This document shows, one piece after another, positions 35,733-55,349 of a DNA stretch of 64,000 nt. A program made the translations under genes and the position numbers. The notes beneath the pieces were generated by a model. It did not search any database. It saw only the letters and a list, made by a program, of their open reading frames with translations, and was not told where the DNA came from. Origin of the DNA: Gammaproteobacteria bacterium (GTDB taxonomy: Bacteria; Pseudomonadota; Gammaproteobacteria; Burkholderiales; Gallionellaceae). How positions within the stretch are numbered: position 1 is the first letter of the stretch; each line of letters begins with the position of its first letter. The stretch spans positions 131,096 through 195,095 of the forward strand of contig JAHJBC010000010.1 of assembly GCA_018813765.1 (NCBI GenBank), given 5' to 3'.

Positions 35733-36494
35733 ATGAAAAAGGCGCATTCACGACCCACAACCTGTCTGGGATCGAAAAACTTGTCCATTTTATCCCATCA
35801 CCCGTTTGACATCGGTGCAAATTTTGCTCGCCTGCTGCCCGCACAGCCATGCGTGCTGTGTGGCACGGGTAGCCTCAACGGCTTGATCTGCAAGGATTGT
35901 GATGCCGAATTGCCGCGCCTGCCGGAGGCACACTGCCCGGTCTGCGCGCTGCCTAGTCCGGTGGGCGGTGTGTGCGGACAATGCCTGCGACACCCGCCCC
36001 ACTTCGACCACTGCGTGGCCGCTTTCAGCTACGCCTTTCCGATGGACAAGCTGCTCCAGGAGCTGAAATACCGCGAACGCTTGATCCTGGTCGACCATCT
36101 TGCCGATGCGCTGGCTCGACACGTCACGCTGCGCCCGGACTTTCTCGTTGCCCTGCCATTGCATCCTGCCCGCTTGCGCGAGCGCGGCTTCAACCAGTCG
36201 CTGCTGCTGGCGCGGCGCATCTCGCGACGGCTCGGCATTCCGTTACTGCCCGACCTGTGCGAGCGTGTGCGCAACACGCCGCCGCAATCGGGACTGCCCT
36301 GGAAGGAACGCGACAAGAACATGCGCGGAGCTTTCGCCTGCGAGTCCGGCGACCGCATCAAAGGCAAACATGTCGCCATCGTGGACGATGTGATGACGAC
36401 GGGCGCTTCGACCGGCGAGCTTGCGCGCATGCTGAAACAGGCGGGGGCGAGCGAGGTCAGCGTTTGGGTGATCGCGCGGACGATGAAGGACTGA
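35733..36494 (+). CDS. comF: ComF-family phosphoribosyltransferase
   Basis: About 253 aa from ATG 35733; a TTG at 35781 would give a version 16 residues shorter. It has a double zinc ribbon of four CxxC-type pairs ([26 protein letters not shown]) and a C-terminal PRTase domain with the PRPP-binding loop [17 protein letters not shown]. Earlier blocks: [20 protein letters not shown] and [16 protein letters not shown]. ComF is required for natural transformation in many species, acting with ComFA/PriA in internalised-ssDNA handling. It is transcribed divergently from bioB and converges on mshN across a short tandem repeat that begins in its stop codon. Confidence 0.92.
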
Positions 36495-36535
36495 GTATCG
36501 AGTACTGAGTGTTGAGTCCTCAGCACTCAGCACTC
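36491..36535. repeat. Short tandem/inverted GAGTNCTGAGT repeats between comF and mshN
   Basis: CTGAGTATCGAGTACTGAGTG followed by TCAGCACTCAGCACTC. Heptad-like units GAGTRCT in both orientations form a hairpin. The same family is found at 49871-49909 and 53826-53943 inside prepilin leaders. It overlaps the TGA of comF. Confidence 0.7.
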
Positions 36536-36545
36536 CGTTGTCGAG

Positions 36546-48896: not shown

Positions 48897-48974
48897 CCCT
48901 CATCCCCTTCCCTTCTCCCAAGGGGAGAAGGGAGCCAAGCCCCTCTCCCACCGGGAGAGGGGTTGGGGTGAGGG
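48897..48974. repeat. Palindromic repeat between mshO and mshP
   Basis: 78 bp from CCCTCATCCCCTTCCCTTCT to GGTTGGGGTGAGGG, with sub-arms CCCTTCTCCC/GGGGAGAAGGG and CCCCTCTCCC/GGGAGAGGGG. It is related to the smaller copy at 62305-62344. It is open in the mshP frame, but the mshP start lies downstream. Confidence 0.85.
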
Positions 48975-49008
48975 AACCGCCGCATGGCCTGCATAACTAC
49001 ATTGTCCA

Positions 49009-49983
49009 TCACGGTATGTTGTTGATATGCACTTCATGGTAAAGGTTCACGCTTTCGTTGCCGCGCGTGATCGTTAATCTTGCCGCCAGCAAACTGTTGC
49101 GCTGGTTATCGGTGTTATAGACGAAAGTGCAGCCGCTCACCTTCTGGGCAAGGATCGCTCTCGATCCGCCGGGCGGAGGCGCTGCCAGCACAGGATTGAA
49201 ACCGTAATTCCAGTAACGCCTAAGTTGGCAAGTGCCATCTCCGTCCGCACCGATTCCGCACGGGTTTCCGTTGGGGCTCATGCAGGCATAGGTCACGGCC
49301 CGCTGGGCAGCAGGCACAACTGAAAAACGATGTCCCTCAAGTTCCGACGAGGCGGGCAATGTCGCACCGGATGTGAACTGCACAGTGGTTGTTCCTGCCG
49401 CCGAAACCATGCGCCTCACGCCGGTTGCCGAATCCACCGCCTGATACGGTTGGCTTCCGTCCGATTGCGTGCTACCGATCACGATGGCATCGCCGACACT
49501 GGTTGCGATCTGTGTGCCAACGATCTCGAAACAGGTATCCGGAGCATCGAACGAAAGATTGTCGCCCGCCGCACCGCACAACCCGGAACCACTTGCCGCA
49601 TCAACCCGATAGCGTCCGCCTGCAGTCGTCGGCAGGAATTCAAAATACGTCGATCCCGCCGGTGTCGGCATGCGTATGCTGTTCGGCACCGCCGTGCGCA
49701 GGTCGCGTCCCAGCCTGCGCAGCGCGGTATCGGCGATATCGGTCATCTCGGCGCGGCGCGCGCTGTCCACATAGCCCTGCACCGGCGCACGGATGAACAT
49801 CGCCACCATGCCCGCGATGATGCCGGTGATGACGATGACGATGATCATCTCGACCAGGGTGAAGCCTTGGGAGTGCCGAGGGATGAGTGCTGAGTGCTGA
49901 GTGCTGAGAAGAAGCGGGCGCGCAGGGACATTGGCCTGCCCGGCCTGAATCCTGAATCCCGAATCCTGAATCCTGTTTTTCAT
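49009..49983 (-). CDS. mshO: MSHA minor pseudopilin MshO with an expanded leader peptide
   Basis: 324 aa from ATG 49981-49983, which shares one base with the mshD stop (TGATG). The type IV prepilin cleavage site is G-FTLVEMIIVIVITGIIAGMV, but the leader is about 40 residues long instead of 6-15, because two short-tandem repeats were taken up between the start and the Gly: RIQDSGFRIQ from a TGAATCC repeat and LSTQHSALIPRHSQ from a GAGTGCT repeat. The mature protein has the Cys pairs CGAAGDN, DTCFEIV, ACMSPNGNPC expected for MshO. It probably works with MshP and MshQ at the tip. Confidence 0.92.
   Translation of the reverse strand: MKNRIQDSGFRIQAGQANVPARPLLLSTQHSALIPRHSQGFTLVEMIIVIVITGIIAGMVAMFIRAPVQGYVDSARRAEMTDIADTALRRLGRDLRTAVPNSIRMPTPAGSTYFEFLPTTAGGRYRVDAASGSGLCGAAGDNLSFDAPDTCFEIVGTQIATSVGDAIVIGSTQSDGSQPYQAVDSATGVRRMVSAAGTTTVQFTSGATLPASSELEGHRFSVVPAAQRAVTYACMSPNGNPCGIGADGDGTCQLRRYWNYGFNPVLAAPPPGGSRAILAQKVSGCTFVYNTDNQRNSLLAARLTITRGNESVNLYHEVHINNIP
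49871..49975. repeat. Two short-tandem repeat tracts inside the mshO leader region
   Basis: 49871-49909: units of GAGTGCT(GA) repeated four times. 49945-49975: TGAATCC units repeated four times. Both are within the coding region of the MshO leader and keep its frame. Confidence 0.8.
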
Positions 49984-50492
49984 CAGTTGCCTGCCCTGTA
50001 ACCCGTTGCTTCCACCGTCGTACCTGTGGGATCAGCGACGGTAACGGTGATCACTACGGCACTGCCCGCCGTAATGGCCGTGCCGCCAAGCGTCGGTATC
50101 TGTGCCACTGCTACGCTGGTGATGTTGTATCCACCCAATCCCCCCACCAGAGTGTTGGACGAGAAATCGCGGATGCCGCCCGTGGTGCTGTAATTGCAGT
50201 AGTCCCACACCGATGTCACTCCCGAGCGCGCCAAATCCGGCCCCAGCGCCATGGTACAGGCGACACCGGAAAGGTCCTGCAACCTGATCTCCTCCAGCAT
50301 CGATTCGGCCACCGCCAGCGCCTGCTTGCGCAGCAGCGGGTCGGCGCTGCTGCGCGTGACCCGGTCCATCACCAGCAATATCCCGGCCATCGCGGTGCTG
50401 ATGATGACGATGAAGATGATGAGTTCGATGAGGCTGATGCCGCGTTGAACAAGCCGCCGCACGTTTGCCACCGATGGCAACTTGCCACTCAT
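49983..50492 (-). CDS. mshD: MSHA minor pseudopilin MshD
   Basis: 169 aa. The leader MSGKLPSVANVRRLVQRG is basic, 18 residues, with cleavage before ISLIELIIFIVIISTAMAGILL; +1 is Ile and Glu+5 is kept. The globular part has two Cys (GVACTMAL, WDYCNYS) likely to form a disulfide. It overlaps the ORF6N gene by four bases (ATGA) and mshO by one. In the standard locus mshC is directly upstream, whereas two extra genes intervene here. Confidence 0.92.
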   Translation of the reverse strand: MSGKLPSVANVRRLVQRGISLIELIIFIVIISTAMAGILLVMDRVTRSSADPLLRKQALAVAESMLEEIRLQDLSGVACTMALGPDLARSGVTSVWDYCNYSTTGGIRDFSSNTLVGGLGGYNITSVAVAQIPTLGGTAITAGSAVVITVTVADPTGTTVEATGYRAGN

Positions 50493-51022
50493 GTCTTGCT
50501 TCCTTTGATTATTGCAGTAAAGCCAATTGGGCGACTCATGTCACCCGGTTGTTTCATCAATTGGCGAATCCCGTTCATCAACCCGACAATAGCCTGATCA
50601 TGGCCGGAAACCTTGCGCTCCAATTCCAGCAGCTTTGCCGCCAATTCTTTGTTGGTTGCAAGCATTTCGCGCAGTTGTACGAACGTACGCACCACCAACA
50701 AACTCACCTCGACAGCGCGATCAGATTTCAGCACATTGCCCAGCATCAAGGCGCCGTGTTCGGTGAAAGCGTAGGGCAAAGTCCGCGAATATTTGAGTCT
50801 GGCGAGGTGGTCACAATTTGTGACCACCTCCGTTTTTTCAGTTTGGGTAAGCCGGAACATGAAATCCGCAGGAAAACGGTCAATATTACGTTGCACCGCC
50901 TGATTCAAAGCTTTGGTCGGAACTCCATATAGTTCAGCCAAATCGGCATCAACCATCACCTTTTGGCCGCGCAATACCAGGATTCGCTGCGCAACAGACT
51001 CGGTTGCGATAATTTCTGTCAT
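50489..51022 (-). CDS. ORF6N-domain protein embedded in the pilus operon
   Basis: 177 aa. An N-terminal ORF6N DNA-binding-like domain (about residues 8-95): LRGQKVMVDADLAELYGVPT, ALNQAVQRNIDRFPADFMFRL and the family peptide VVTNCDHLARLKYSR, then LPYAFTEHGALMLGNVL. The C-terminal half is a helical coiled coil (REMLATNKELAAKLLELE). ORF6N proteins are usual in phages and mobile islands as regulators with KilA-N-like folds. Here the gene is coupled by ATGA at both ends: to a small upstream gene and to mshD. The coding sequence contains a 27-bp palindrome at 50804-50830. This suggests a captured regulator; whether it controls pilin expression is unknown. Confidence 0.85.
   Translation of the reverse strand: MTEIIATESVAQRILVLRGQKVMVDADLAELYGVPTKALNQAVQRNIDRFPADFMFRLTQTEKTEVVTNCDHLARLKYSRTLPYAFTEHGALMLGNVLKSDRAVEVSLLVVRTFVQLREMLATNKELAAKLLELERKVSGHDQAIVGLMNGIRQLMKQPGDMSRPIGFTAIIKGSKT
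50804..50830. promoter_or_regulatory. 27-bp palindrome inside the ORF6N gene, possible operator
   Basis: GAGGTGGTCACAATTTG followed by TGACCACCTC is a near-perfect palindrome with a single odd centre. It encodes EVVTNCDHLA in the ORF6N protein. A partial copy stands 15-38 bases upstream of the ORF6N start at 51037-51060. A binding site for the ORF6N protein itself is possible but unproven. Confidence 0.45.
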
Positions 51023-51288
51023 GGCTTCTCTTTCGCGAGGTGGTCACAATTTGCCACCACTTGATTTGAGTCACTCACCAACGTCATCTGGTGTTGCTGA
51101 TGTTTCGGCTCCGCCTGCTCGAGCGGCGTCATCAGGCTCCGCACTTTCTCCCCACCCTGCTGCGCAAGTTGCGGATTCTGCTTCCACATCTGGATGAAGA
51201 ATTCGCGCATCCGCTCCGACTGCTCCAGCCGGGCTGGCATGATGGGTTCGGGAATGGTCTGGCGCACAGGCGCCTTTGCTTCAGACAT
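51019..51288 (-). CDS. Small unknown protein upstream of the ORF6N gene
   Basis: 89 aa from ATG 51286-51288 (MSEAKAPVRQTIPEP); a longer frame to 51459 covers dispersed repeats and overlaps mshC, so it is rejected. The chain is hydrophilic and helical (QSERMREFFIQMWKQNPQL, GGEKVRSLMTPLEQAE). Its C-terminus, QVVANCDHLAKEKP, repeats the ORF6N peptide VVTNCDHLA, encoded by a partial DNA duplication. No function is recognised. The stop codon overlaps the ORF6N start (ATGA). Confidence 0.6.
   Translation of the reverse strand: MSEAKAPVRQTIPEPIMPARLEQSERMREFFIQMWKQNPQLAQQGGEKVRSLMTPLEQAEPKHQQHQMTLVSDSNQVVANCDHLAKEKP
51037..51060. repeat. Partial copy of the ORF6N palindrome just upstream of the ORF6N start
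   Basis: GAGGTGGTCACAATTTG (51037-51053) is identical to the left arm and centre of 50804-50830, and then diverges to CCACCAC. It ends the coding region of the small gene at 51019-51288 and covers the translation initiation region of the ORF6N gene. Confidence 0.75.
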
Positions 51289-51373
51289 TCGGGGCTTCCC
51301 ACAATCTAAACTATCAGGCGGAATATGAACGATAGCCGTAATCCCACATAAAGTATCGTCCGGCAAAGCCGGA

Positions 51374-51417
51374 CTCCTACAGGGATACTGTAGGAGCGCG
51401 ACTTGTTGCGCAATTGA
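51374..51417. repeat. Degenerate copy of the CTCCTACA/TGTAGGAGCGC palindrome
   Basis: CTCCTACAGGGATACTGTAGGAG followed by CGCGACTTGTTGCGCAATTGA. It is the right half of the 55234-55300 element with a shortened left arm. It lies in the mshC to small-gene intergenic space, together with further GC-rich repeat remnants up to 51440. Confidence 0.7.
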
Positions 51418-51448
51418 ACTCCGGCTCCCGCTCTGCGGGAATGACAAC

Positions 51449-51874
51449 CTAGTGCACATAACCCGTCTCAGCCTCGATGGTGATGGTGGTACCGCCTACT
51501 GTCGTCGTCGTTCGAGCATTCGGCACCGGGCGCCCCATGAAGTCGAAGGCTGGCGACAGCGTACCGCCCAGCGTCACACCGTTCGGCACCACGCAAGTGA
51601 TGACGCCCGCCACCACCGCCGTGCTGCAATTCACAGGTGTTCCGTTCGATATGTTCACCCTGACTGGGGCAGCTACTGGTGCATGCGATGCGATGGCGAC
51701 CTTTTGCGCATAGCGCAAGGCCGCCGCGACCTGGTCGGCCGTGGCACGATTGCGGAACGCATCGGTGTCGGCAAAACGCGGCATGGCCACCACCGAGATG
51801 ATGCCCAGAATGACGATGATGGTGATCATCTCGACCAAGGTGAAGCCGCATTGCTTTTGTACGACCTGACTCAT
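51449..51874 (-). CDS. mshC: MSHA minor pilin MshC
   Basis: 141 aa. The leader MSQVVQKQCG is cut before FTLVEMITIIVILGIISVVAMPRF, the canonical class IVa pilin helix with Glu+5. The small globular domain has two Cys (VNCSTAV, ITCVVPN), presumably a disulfide, and ends GGTTITIEAETGYVH. It follows mshA beyond a strong terminator, so it depends on read-through or its own promoter. After it come the small unknown gene and the ORF6N gene. Confidence 0.88.
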   Translation of the reverse strand: MSQVVQKQCGFTLVEMITIIVILGIISVVAMPRFADTDAFRNRATADQVAAALRYAQKVAIASHAPVAAPVRVNISNGTPVNCSTAVVAGVITCVVPNGVTLGGTLSPAFDFMGRPVPNARTTTTVGGTTITIEAETGYVH

Positions 51875-53314: not shown

Positions 53315-53953
53315 TCAATCGACCCAGCGGTAAGGCTCGGTCGGCTTGAACAGGGTGGTGGCCAGCTCCTTACCGGAGTCGGGCTTACCAAGTGCCGGTT
53401 CGTAGCCGAGATGAACATGGAAGCGTATCCATTTCCTGCCGTCGCTGCCCGGCGTAAAACTGTCGGCACGATCCAACACATAGATCAGCTCGCGCGATTT
53501 CAGGTCGAACATCCAGTGGCCGGGGGCGACGGCGCCCGGGGTTGGATCGTAGAACTCGCCGGAATAGTTCTGCGGTTTTTGCTGCAGCCAGTCCATTGGA
53601 TTGTCGGTAGCGAGTTTGCTCAACTGTTGTTCGCTGGCCGCGCCGCGCGTCAGCAGCGCGCCGTAGCGCATCACCAGCGCGCTCTGCAGCGCTCCTTCCA
53701 CCTGCTGCATGGCAGCTTTTTCGGCCCGTTCCTGATAGTAGGGAACGCGCGTCAGAAACAGCCCGGCCAGGATCGCAATGATAGAGATAACGGCGATGAG
53801 TTCGAGCAGCGTAAAACCTTTAACAGAGTGCTGAGTGCTGAGTGCTGAGTGCCGAGAAGGAAGTGCTGAGTTCCGAGTGCCGAGTTCCGAGTGCTGGGGC
53901 ACCCGCTCTTCACTCAGTACTCGGCACTCAGAACTCAGCACTGGCTTTATCAT
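53315..53953 (-). CDS. MSHA pseudopilin (MshB/MshF-like) with an expanded leader peptide
   Basis: 212 aa from ATG 53951-53953, overlapping the mshG stop by four bases (ATGA). It begins MIKPVLSSECRVLSEERV and reaches the cleavage site only after about 46 residues: KG-FTLLELIAVISIIAILAG. The leader contains GAGTGCT-type repeats (53826-53943), reading as SSECRVLS, HSELGTRNSAL and HSALSTQHS. The mature part (YYQERAEKAAMQQVEG, NPMDWLQQKPQNYSGEF, APGHWMFDLKSRELIYVLD) resembles MshF C-terminal features and lacks Cys. Position after mshG agrees with mshF/mshB of other loci. Confidence 0.8.
   Translation of the reverse strand: MIKPVLSSECRVLSEERVPQHSELGTRNSALPSRHSALSTQHSVKGFTLLELIAVISIIAILAGLFLTRVPYYQERAEKAAMQQVEGALQSALVMRYGALLTRGAASEQQLSKLATDNPMDWLQQKPQNYSGEFYDPTPGAVAPGHWMFDLKSRELIYVLDRADSFTPGSDGRKWIRFHVHLGYEPALGKPDSGKELATTLFKPTEPYRWVD
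53826..53943. repeat. GAGTGCT/CAGCACT repeat cluster inside the pseudopilin leader
   Basis: About 118 bp. It starts GAGTGCTGAGTGCTGAGTGC and ends with ACTCAGAACTCAGCACTGG. Direct GAGTGCT/GAGTTCC units in the left part and inverted CACTCAG units in the right part can form a hairpin. It is translated as the leader of the 53315-53953 protein. Confidence 0.85.
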
Positions 53954-55191: not shown

Positions 55192-55233
55192 CAGACCATC
55201 CCTGCGGATTGCCGCGCGGACAGAAATCCATGA

Positions 55234-55300
55234 ATCGATCGCGCAACAAGTTGCGCTCCTACAGGGACTTTGTAGGAGCGCAACTTGTTGCGCGATTGAT
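55234..55300. repeat. Long palindrome between mshE and mshG
   Basis: Arms 55234-55263 and 55271-55300 (30 nt each, one mismatch) flank a 7-nt loop. Core: GCGCAACAAGTTGCGCTCCTACA and its complement. Each arm itself contains the small palindrome GCGCAACAAGTTGCGC. It would form a strong mRNA hairpin. A degenerate copy is at 51374-51417. Confidence 0.9.
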
Positions 55301-55349
55301 TTGCAGATTCACCCGCGCAGGGGAATGACGGGTTAATAGAGAGCTTCAC

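Follow-up and report, generated by a model that had tools for sequence, protein, structure and literature searches.

Repeat-bearing leaders of minor prepilins at tight operon junctions in a Gallionellaceae genome

The leader of the minor prepilin MshO, encoded within a window of 64,000 nucleotides (the whole stretch of DNA that was analysed), was found to consist largely of imperfect seven-base repeats that recur throughout the genome, and the leaders of other minor prepilins at comparable junctions have been occupied by different inserts on several occasions. We consider it probable that the leaders of minor prepilins, which are predicted to be cleaved off by a peptidase, tolerate repeats at tight operon junctions.

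The mshO leader and its operon

The minus strand of the window carries an MSHA pilus operon in which an MshE-like ATPase, a GspF/PilC-like protein and several prepilin genes are encoded together (Table 1). The names mshA to mshQ are presumed assignments in line with the first-pass annotation, and 'ppX' is a label given here to the minor prepilin gene that follows mshG. The MshE-related cyclic di-GMP domain (NF053729) was recovered with 72.1 bits (cut-off 38). A tblastn search with the window proteins retrieved the same gene set in most of 28 regions from the genus, some of which are cut by contig ends.

Table 1. Positions of the repeats and of the genes that carry or adjoin them in the window
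Feature	Position	Strand	Basis or remark
Heptamer family copy, inverted pair	36491..36537	.	pattern search; classed intergenic
Palindromic CCCTCTCCC/GGGAGAGGG-type repeats near mshP	48898..48980	-	upstream of likely mshP start
mshO-like minor prepilin gene	49009..49983	-	ORF, 324 codons; Pfam N_methyl
mshO leader, 39 codons preceding the cleavage-site Gly	49867..49983	-	start ATG 49983-49981 overlaps mshD stop
GCACTCA-type heptamer array, mshO leader	49871..49908	-	Tandem Repeats Finder, ~5 imperfect units
GGATTCA-type heptamer array, mshO leader	49944..49975	-	Tandem Repeats Finder, 4-5 imperfect units
mshD-like prepilin, upstream of mshO	49983..50492	-	stop overlaps mshO start; N_methyl
ppX minor prepilin	53315..53953	-	N_methyl 26.5 bits; ATG overlaps mshG stop (ATGA); 45-residue leader
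ppX leader: inverted heptamer pair and further array	53826..53945	-	Tandem Repeats Finder and RNA fold
mshE-mshG gap with palindromic REP-like insert	55192..55349	-	junction measurement

MshO has the GFxxxE cleavage motif and subsequent hydrophobic stretch of a type IV prepilin, and profile searches assigned it to N_methyl (PF07963; residues 36-60, 35.3 bits, cut-off 21.2) and TIGR02532 (25.8 bits, cut-off 16.3). For the preceding mshD the N_methyl score was 21.0 bits in one search, below that cut-off, and 23 bits in another, above it. The first-pass annotation had placed the start of mshO at an ATG that overlaps the mshD stop, with the G-FTLVEMI site about 40 residues away, and both statements agree with the sequence: the junction reads TGATG, the two codons having one base in common, and direct reading gives MKNRIQDSGFRIQAGQANVPARPLLLSTQHSALIPRHSQ followed by GFTLVEMI, that is 39 residues, or 40 with the Gly. 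The window mshO contains no further in-frame ATG, GTG or TTG ahead of the cleavage site.

The two arrays within this leader both have a period of 7, with 4.6 copies, 92% matches and a score of 57 for the GGATTCA type and 5.4 copies, 83% matches and a score of 55 for the GCACTCA type, and by inspection they are free of stop codons in any frame. At lag 7 the leader shows an identity of 0.53 (z 6.9 versus 100 dinucleotide shuffles), and with up to one mismatch allowed CTCAGCACTCAG matches the window 12 times, where 0.38 matches are expected. The earlier claim that two different repeats are present thus stands as far as both arrays exist, but the two fit one loose dispersed pattern, NAYTCRG. The GGATTCA array corresponds to the left-arm type of the ppX hairpins of relatives and the GCACTCA array to the right-arm type. 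No RNA hairpin and no palindrome was found in the window mshO leader itself (fold z +1.57 versus shuffles), which has the appearance of two element halves joined into a chimera.

Repeats also occur at other places in the operon. Those near mshP are probably intergenic and not part of the mshP leader, because several in-frame ATG codons lie between them and the mshP cleavage site. The mshE-mshG junction measures -1 or +2 nt in 22 of the 24 operons measured; the present genome is one of the two exceptions (G012 being the other), with a REP-like insert of 158 nt that lies upstream of the own start of mshG, which encodes no prepilin. Between mshC and mshD an ORF6N-domain gene (50489-51022) and a small ORF (51019-51459) were observed; in relatives this gap ranges from 22 nt to more than 1300 nt, and small genes seem to come and go at this junction.

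Leader inserts of minor prepilins in related genomes

An mshO homolog was recovered from 28 of 34 genomes of the genus, with the same operon in all 28 regions fetched (a second, partial match in G002, L093, was left out). With the leader counted from the farthest in-frame ATG in a span of 75 codons, it is short in 22 of these genomes and long in 6. The close relatives, whose alignment the first-pass annotation had called for, have mostly short leaders, and the contents of the six long ones differ. The leader of the window genome (G000) has 39 residues encoded by heptamers, and that of G005 has 35 residues in which no repeat was recognised. In G012 a 26-residue leader carries the palindrome GTCGGGCTTCAGCCCGAC, which belongs without mismatch to a family matched 39+34 times in that genome, and in G001 a leader of 21 residues carries an unrelated palindrome of the CCCTCTCCCGCAAACGGGAGAGGG type, matched by reading the leader to a pattern with 7+7 matches (both counts take in the two strands). 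The leaders of G018 (25 residues) and G016 (18 residues, with a single-copy palindrome) have a start nearer to the Gly, which makes the long form optional. The long mshO leaders of the relatives do not have period 7 (z of 1.3 or less). On a tree of the 28 genomes based on MshE, MshG and MshO, the distinction between long and short requires at least 5 changes. Counted from the mshD stop, the Gly lies at a distance (116 nt in the window) that equals 2 modulo 3 in 27 of 28 genomes, including all 6 with a long leader.

Heptamers are more evident at ppX, which was usable in 25 of the 28 operon regions. Its leader is short in 7 cases, shows period 7 in 14 (z of 5.2 or more) and is long in another way in the remaining 4. 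In the window the arms of the inverted pair lie at ~53911-53945 and ~53862-53893, with the further array at ~53826-53856, and RNA of 53850-53953 is predicted to fold with -63.5 kcal/mol (z -9.21). Likewise, a fold better than that of shuffles (z -3.3 or lower) is predicted for 12 of the 14 heptamer leaders, the ones lacking a clear fold being those of G018 (z -1.3) and G012 (z -1.5). Read by eye, the heptamer types of the different genomes are GAGTGCT, GGATTCA, GGATACG, GGATTTG and GGATTGA, and the type differs even between the close relatives G013 and G030. With states assigned by eye, and with four genomes filling less than half of the tree columns, heptamer presence at ppX requires at least 8 changes on the tree; when leader state is scored as heptamer type, other insert or no insert, the minimum in the 25 genomes rises to 13. 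Relative to the mshG stop, 23 of 24 usable junctions have the same frame, all 14 heptamer leaders among them; G001 was left out of this count as its mshG is cut by a contig end. The exceptions to frame conservation, G015 at mshO (with a short leader) and G026 at ppX, are open and have a start of their own, so that no copy in an off phase was observed. Some ppX leaders contain an internal GTG, TTG or ATG, like the GTG inside the ppX loop of the window, and in some genomes a shorter product may arise from such a start. In G012 and G031 (L120, C95:9017 and L127, C3:36538, respectively) a CCCTCGCCCGC-type palindrome was observed within the heptamer leader of ppX, where one element thus adjoins or lies inside another.

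Inserts of a different kind were found in minor pseudopilins of type II secretion. The leaders of gspH and gspI in the window genome (43 and 42 residues) contain, in frame, the dispersed CCCCCTTTTGCAAAGGGGG palindrome, for which that genome has 65+64 matches and the control 0. In gspK two CCCTCTCCC-type palindromes lie downstream of the first possible ATG; they are followed by another ATG nine residues before the Gly, and the palindromes may lie outside the leader. Of 19 genus genomes, 11 have a gspH leader of two residues and 5 (G000, G029, G005, G020 and G021) an insert-like long one; a later ATG is present in gspH of G011 and G024. The gspI leaders of these 19 genomes differ in content and not all are recognisable as repeats; in those of G008 and G028 no repeat was recognised.

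The length of the leaders varies with the role of the protein. The nearest ATG lies more than 20 residues from the Gly in 16/25 ppX, 8/19 gspI, 8/19 gspH, 8/28 mshC, 8/28 mshD, 9/28 mshP and 1/18 gspJ genes, versus 0/28 rows for mshA (one of which, from G002, is a mis-hit to mshC) and 0/19 for gspG, so that the leaders of the major pilins are short in this genus. Given that mshC, mshD and mshP are flagged as well, the nearest-ATG measure is unspecific. When GTG and TTG are also allowed as starts, the leader is obligatorily long in 7/25 ppX, 5/19 gspI, 3/19 gspH, 2/28 mshO, 5/28 mshD, 1/28 mshC, 1/28 mshP and 0/18 gspJ genes; this start-free measure supports ppX, gspI and gspH, but alone it does not separate mshO from mshD.

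Considering the other inserts in the mshO leaders of relatives and the occupied leaders of ppX, gspH and gspI, the initial suggestion that leader regions tolerate insertions is supported. Selection for insertions, the accompanying suggestion, is not shown: leaders in the genus are commonly short, and the window mshO leader lacks a hairpin.

Distribution of the repeats within and beyond the genus

An exact search for three copies of TGAATCC gave no match in the window genome, because the units are imperfect. Searched with a degenerate heptamer pattern at up to 2 mismatches, the 3.14 Mb genome contains 102 matches (47 forward and 55 reverse), compared with 5 for the reversed control. Grouped by hand, the 100 matches listed represent at least 22 places, 19 of which are outside the window; C1:116882, C2:15725, C7:13239, C7:108324 and C10:121844 are defined by two-mismatch matches only and may be due to chance, given the 5 control matches. 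At 10 or more of the 22 places, among the matches listed, a minus-strand array is followed by a plus-strand array, in the order (GAGTGCT-like)n then (GCACTCA-like)n, as exemplified by 36491-36537. A second form has the arms (GGATTCA)n then (TGAATCC)n; at C7:64078 this GGATTCA type occurs in mirror pattern order, with GGATTCA first. At up to 1 mismatch the pattern was found in 30 of the 61 genomes of the relatives set, including the window genome, and the reversed control had matches in 8.

In view of these copies elsewhere in the genome, the arrays of mshO probably arose by insertion or copying and not by expansion at the site. The earlier proposal of two independent expansions therefore needs revision: mshO and ppX of this genome use one dispersed heptamer family, and it is the distribution among relatives on the tree that demonstrates independence. 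Heptamers were also found within genes whose products have FlgJ, NuoG-like, FGAR-AT (purL-like) or Mur-ligase domains, which means that prepilin leaders are not the sole coding sites where they are tolerated. In the case of FlgJ, an inverted pair (L034 2297-2378, C3:6296-6377) is translated in the linker that joins the rod-binding domain (residues 50-96) to the glucosaminidase domain (147-282).

To obtain a background, 464 kb of the window genome (20 chosen stretches and the window) was subjected to a 15-mer repeat screen with a simple gene caller, elements being defined by at least 23 covered bases; a 12-mer screen was replaced as it was dominated by GC-rich coding motifs. The set comprised 412 genes and 36 elements: 23 intergenic, 4 interior and 9 within codons 1-60 of the longest open frame. 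Three of these 9 are those of mshP, mshO and ppX in the window and the other 6 are on five genes. Repeats were present at the leaders of 4 of 16 Pfam prepilins as compared to 5 of ~407 other genes (p 1.6e-4), where the count of 4 was made by reading leaders and mshP is on neither side of the test; without mshO and ppX, the pair that began the inquiry, the numbers are 2 of 14 (p 0.02). One of the 16 prepilins, L054, has a short leader without repeat. As gene starts were predicted crudely, the enrichment at prepilin leaders is only indicative.

A pattern scan of 84,980 species genomes yielded 14 stretches, all picked for carrying heptamers, which inflates their period-7 scores. Eight of them were scored, and the leader had a z above 5 in six (L094, L097, L099, L102, L104 and L107), 4.1 in L103 and 0.3 in L100; five further leaders lacked the length for scoring, and L105 fell outside the scored set. 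L097 is a member of the genus and identical to G016 over 8000 bases, while the period-7 leaders of L094 and L107, of L099 and L102, and of L104 come from records named Deltaproteobacteria, Acidobacteria and Armatimonadetes, respectively. In a scan at the level of the order 139 of 300 genomes matched, and the matches listed gave 30 loci, two of the genus and 28 examined beyond it, among which there were three candidates: a gspJ palindrome (L185), a gspH leader with z 5.3 (L192) and a gspG leader with z 3.1 (L194). Repeat-bearing prepilin leaders thus recur in distant bacteria, but the phenomenon does not look common.

Possible explanations and relation to known repeats

Prepilin leaders are described in passages of PMC10191384 as cytoplasm-facing, variable in length and cut off by the prepilin peptidase, and one such peptidase (PF01478) is encoded in the window genome. 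We propose that copies of a dispersed heptamer-array element, often with two inverted arms, occupy the mshO leader, and that translation would proceed from the ATG at the mshD stop through the repeats. The prepilin peptidase would then remove the whole 40-residue leader and leave the mature pilin unchanged, so that the insert, being removed with the leader, would be harmless. Because the genes of these operons overlap or lie almost end to end, an insert placed between two of them would survive only if it is in frame and if the downstream protein has a disposable N-terminus, such as minor prepilins may provide. The short leaders of the major pilins may reflect a high expression that is perhaps intolerant of inserts. 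A wider version, in which the leaders of minor prepilins form a general bacterial safe harbour for repetitive DNA and heptamer-hairpin elements repeatedly arrive and get replaced at the junctions, possibly by a preference for stop/start overlaps or by way of a hairpin-adjusted dose of minor pilins, we put forward as a tentative and rather doubtful extension.

The folds of the ppX leaders could also be explained by a regulatory RNA hairpin that slows translation and keeps minor pilins scarce, with selection keeping the hairpin while the heptamer sequence turns over. The 12 of 14 well-folding leaders, with that of the window as a strong example, and the arms that are still complementary in G013 and G030 despite their differing heptamer types are consistent with this, but 7 of 25 ppX leaders are too short for a hairpin, G018 and G012 lack a clear fold and the mshO leader of the window folds no better than its shuffles. 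Moreover, the genome commonly has inverted heptamer pairs at other places, and complementarity therefore needs no selection in place, which makes such regulation unlikely to be the explanation. The same arrays, located directly after the start codon and with a unit length that is not a multiple of three, recall a phase-variable contingency locus, in which slippage by 7 bp would shift the frame and toggle MshO or ppX; simple repeats near N-termini are a known theme of phase variation according to passages in PMC4692102. The arrays are, however, short and imperfect (~4-5 units each) and do not form a long near-perfect tract, and a period of 7 does not mark the inserts that lengthen the mshO leader in relatives. 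Free switching should furthermore give some out-of-frame snapshots, whereas the 6 long mshO and 14 heptamer ppX leaders, with one genome per species, are all in frame. We hold a contingency function to be improbable.

Frame conservation likewise bears on the question of whether intergenic repeats have been misread as leaders, in which case the true starts would lie downstream of the repeats and the frame would be open by chance. Later ATG codons do exist in mshP, in gspK and in gspH of G011 and G024, and with GTG and TTG allowed many ppX rows have later starts, among them the GTG in the ppX loop of the window. Yet the maintenance of one frame at 27 of 28 mshO and 23 of 24 ppX junctions is unexpected for untranslated repeats, and for mshO of the window a start after the repeats, which the first-pass annotation had raised as an objection, is contradicted by this conservation together with the absence of a later start codon. 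Misreading is thus very improbable as a general account. An error of sequencing or assembly, finally, might be suspected considering that many of the genomes are drafts, but since the arrays are shorter than 120 bases and occur with conserved frame in 14 different ppX genes, hardly any weight can be given to it. Tolerance of repeats in minor prepilin leaders is therefore the reading that we prefer.

Parts of this picture have precedents. In Rickettsia, palindromic elements constitute repeated palindromic DNA that is kept in frame inside protein genes. A dispersed palindrome that is read in frame within a gene is also what is found in gspH and gspI of the window genome and in mshO of G012, but the mshO of the window has no palindrome. 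Unlike the Rickettsia elements, several unrelated short repeat families here share one functional site, which is predicted to be cut off the protein. The heptameric GGGNATC repeats of Xanthomonas and Nostoc are, according to passages in Rehm et al. 2015 (PMC4692102), scattered and present as convergent inverted pairs in 70 and 75 cases, capable of forming stem-loops, and in two related species they occupy the same places with variable length and sequence. The seven-base units, the dispersal and the inverted pairs (here at least 22 places, at least 10 of them paired) are alike. However, the GGGNATC repeats are rich in G, lie mostly between genes and are depleted in coding regions in that description, whereas the present arrays are translated as prepilin leaders and their CACTCAG type is not G-rich; the GGG tract of each unit is lacking from the CACTCAG units and occurs only in some GATTCGGGATTC stretches. 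The TAACTGA repeats of the Beggiatoaceae, as presented in parts of PMC4679880, are similar in being dispersed heptamers, some of which overlap genes or lie inside them near the ends, with stops in one orientation, but they are mostly direct repeats upstream of genes, and the word 'pilin' is absent from the text. The palindromes of gspH, gspI and the mshO of G012 and G001 resemble, in being short and multi-copy, REP elements, the GTAG/CGTC-tagged palindromes outlined in portions of PMC3733652, from which they differ in that REP elements are named for being extragenic. Heptamer hairpins and in-frame palindromes are thus already known, and no connection between repeats of this sort and prepilin leaders came up in the openly accessible literature (titles and beginnings of abstracts), among the matches listed.

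The recurrence of these inserts has some practical bearing. Since unrelated inserts have hit one leader, predicted to be cleaved, several times, the system provides a natural assay for protein segments that are free to change. Within the same operon, the mshE-mshG junction and the leaders of the major pilins are by contrast tight in most genomes. Annotators and signal-peptide predictors should be aware that prepilin leaders of 40-70 residues made of repeats are possible. Such a leader in addition offers a site with fixed flanks at which the turnover of the poorly understood heptamer elements can be followed.

Some heptamer places elsewhere in the window genome have features of their own. The longest run, of around 10 near-perfect ACTCAGC units, is located at L035 2210-2285 (C3:27209-27284) and is a candidate for copy-number variation. 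Several arrays are clustered at L037 2501-5560 (C4:292500-295559), one of them just upstream of an ORF with MKGIILAGGSGTRLYP, whose product we take to resemble glucose-1-phosphate thymidylyltransferase. In a gene with CusB/HlyD-type domains (L031 899-2494) a reverse-read array (2383-2409) lies near the N-terminus, and its units have CGA instead of TGA at the would-be stop.
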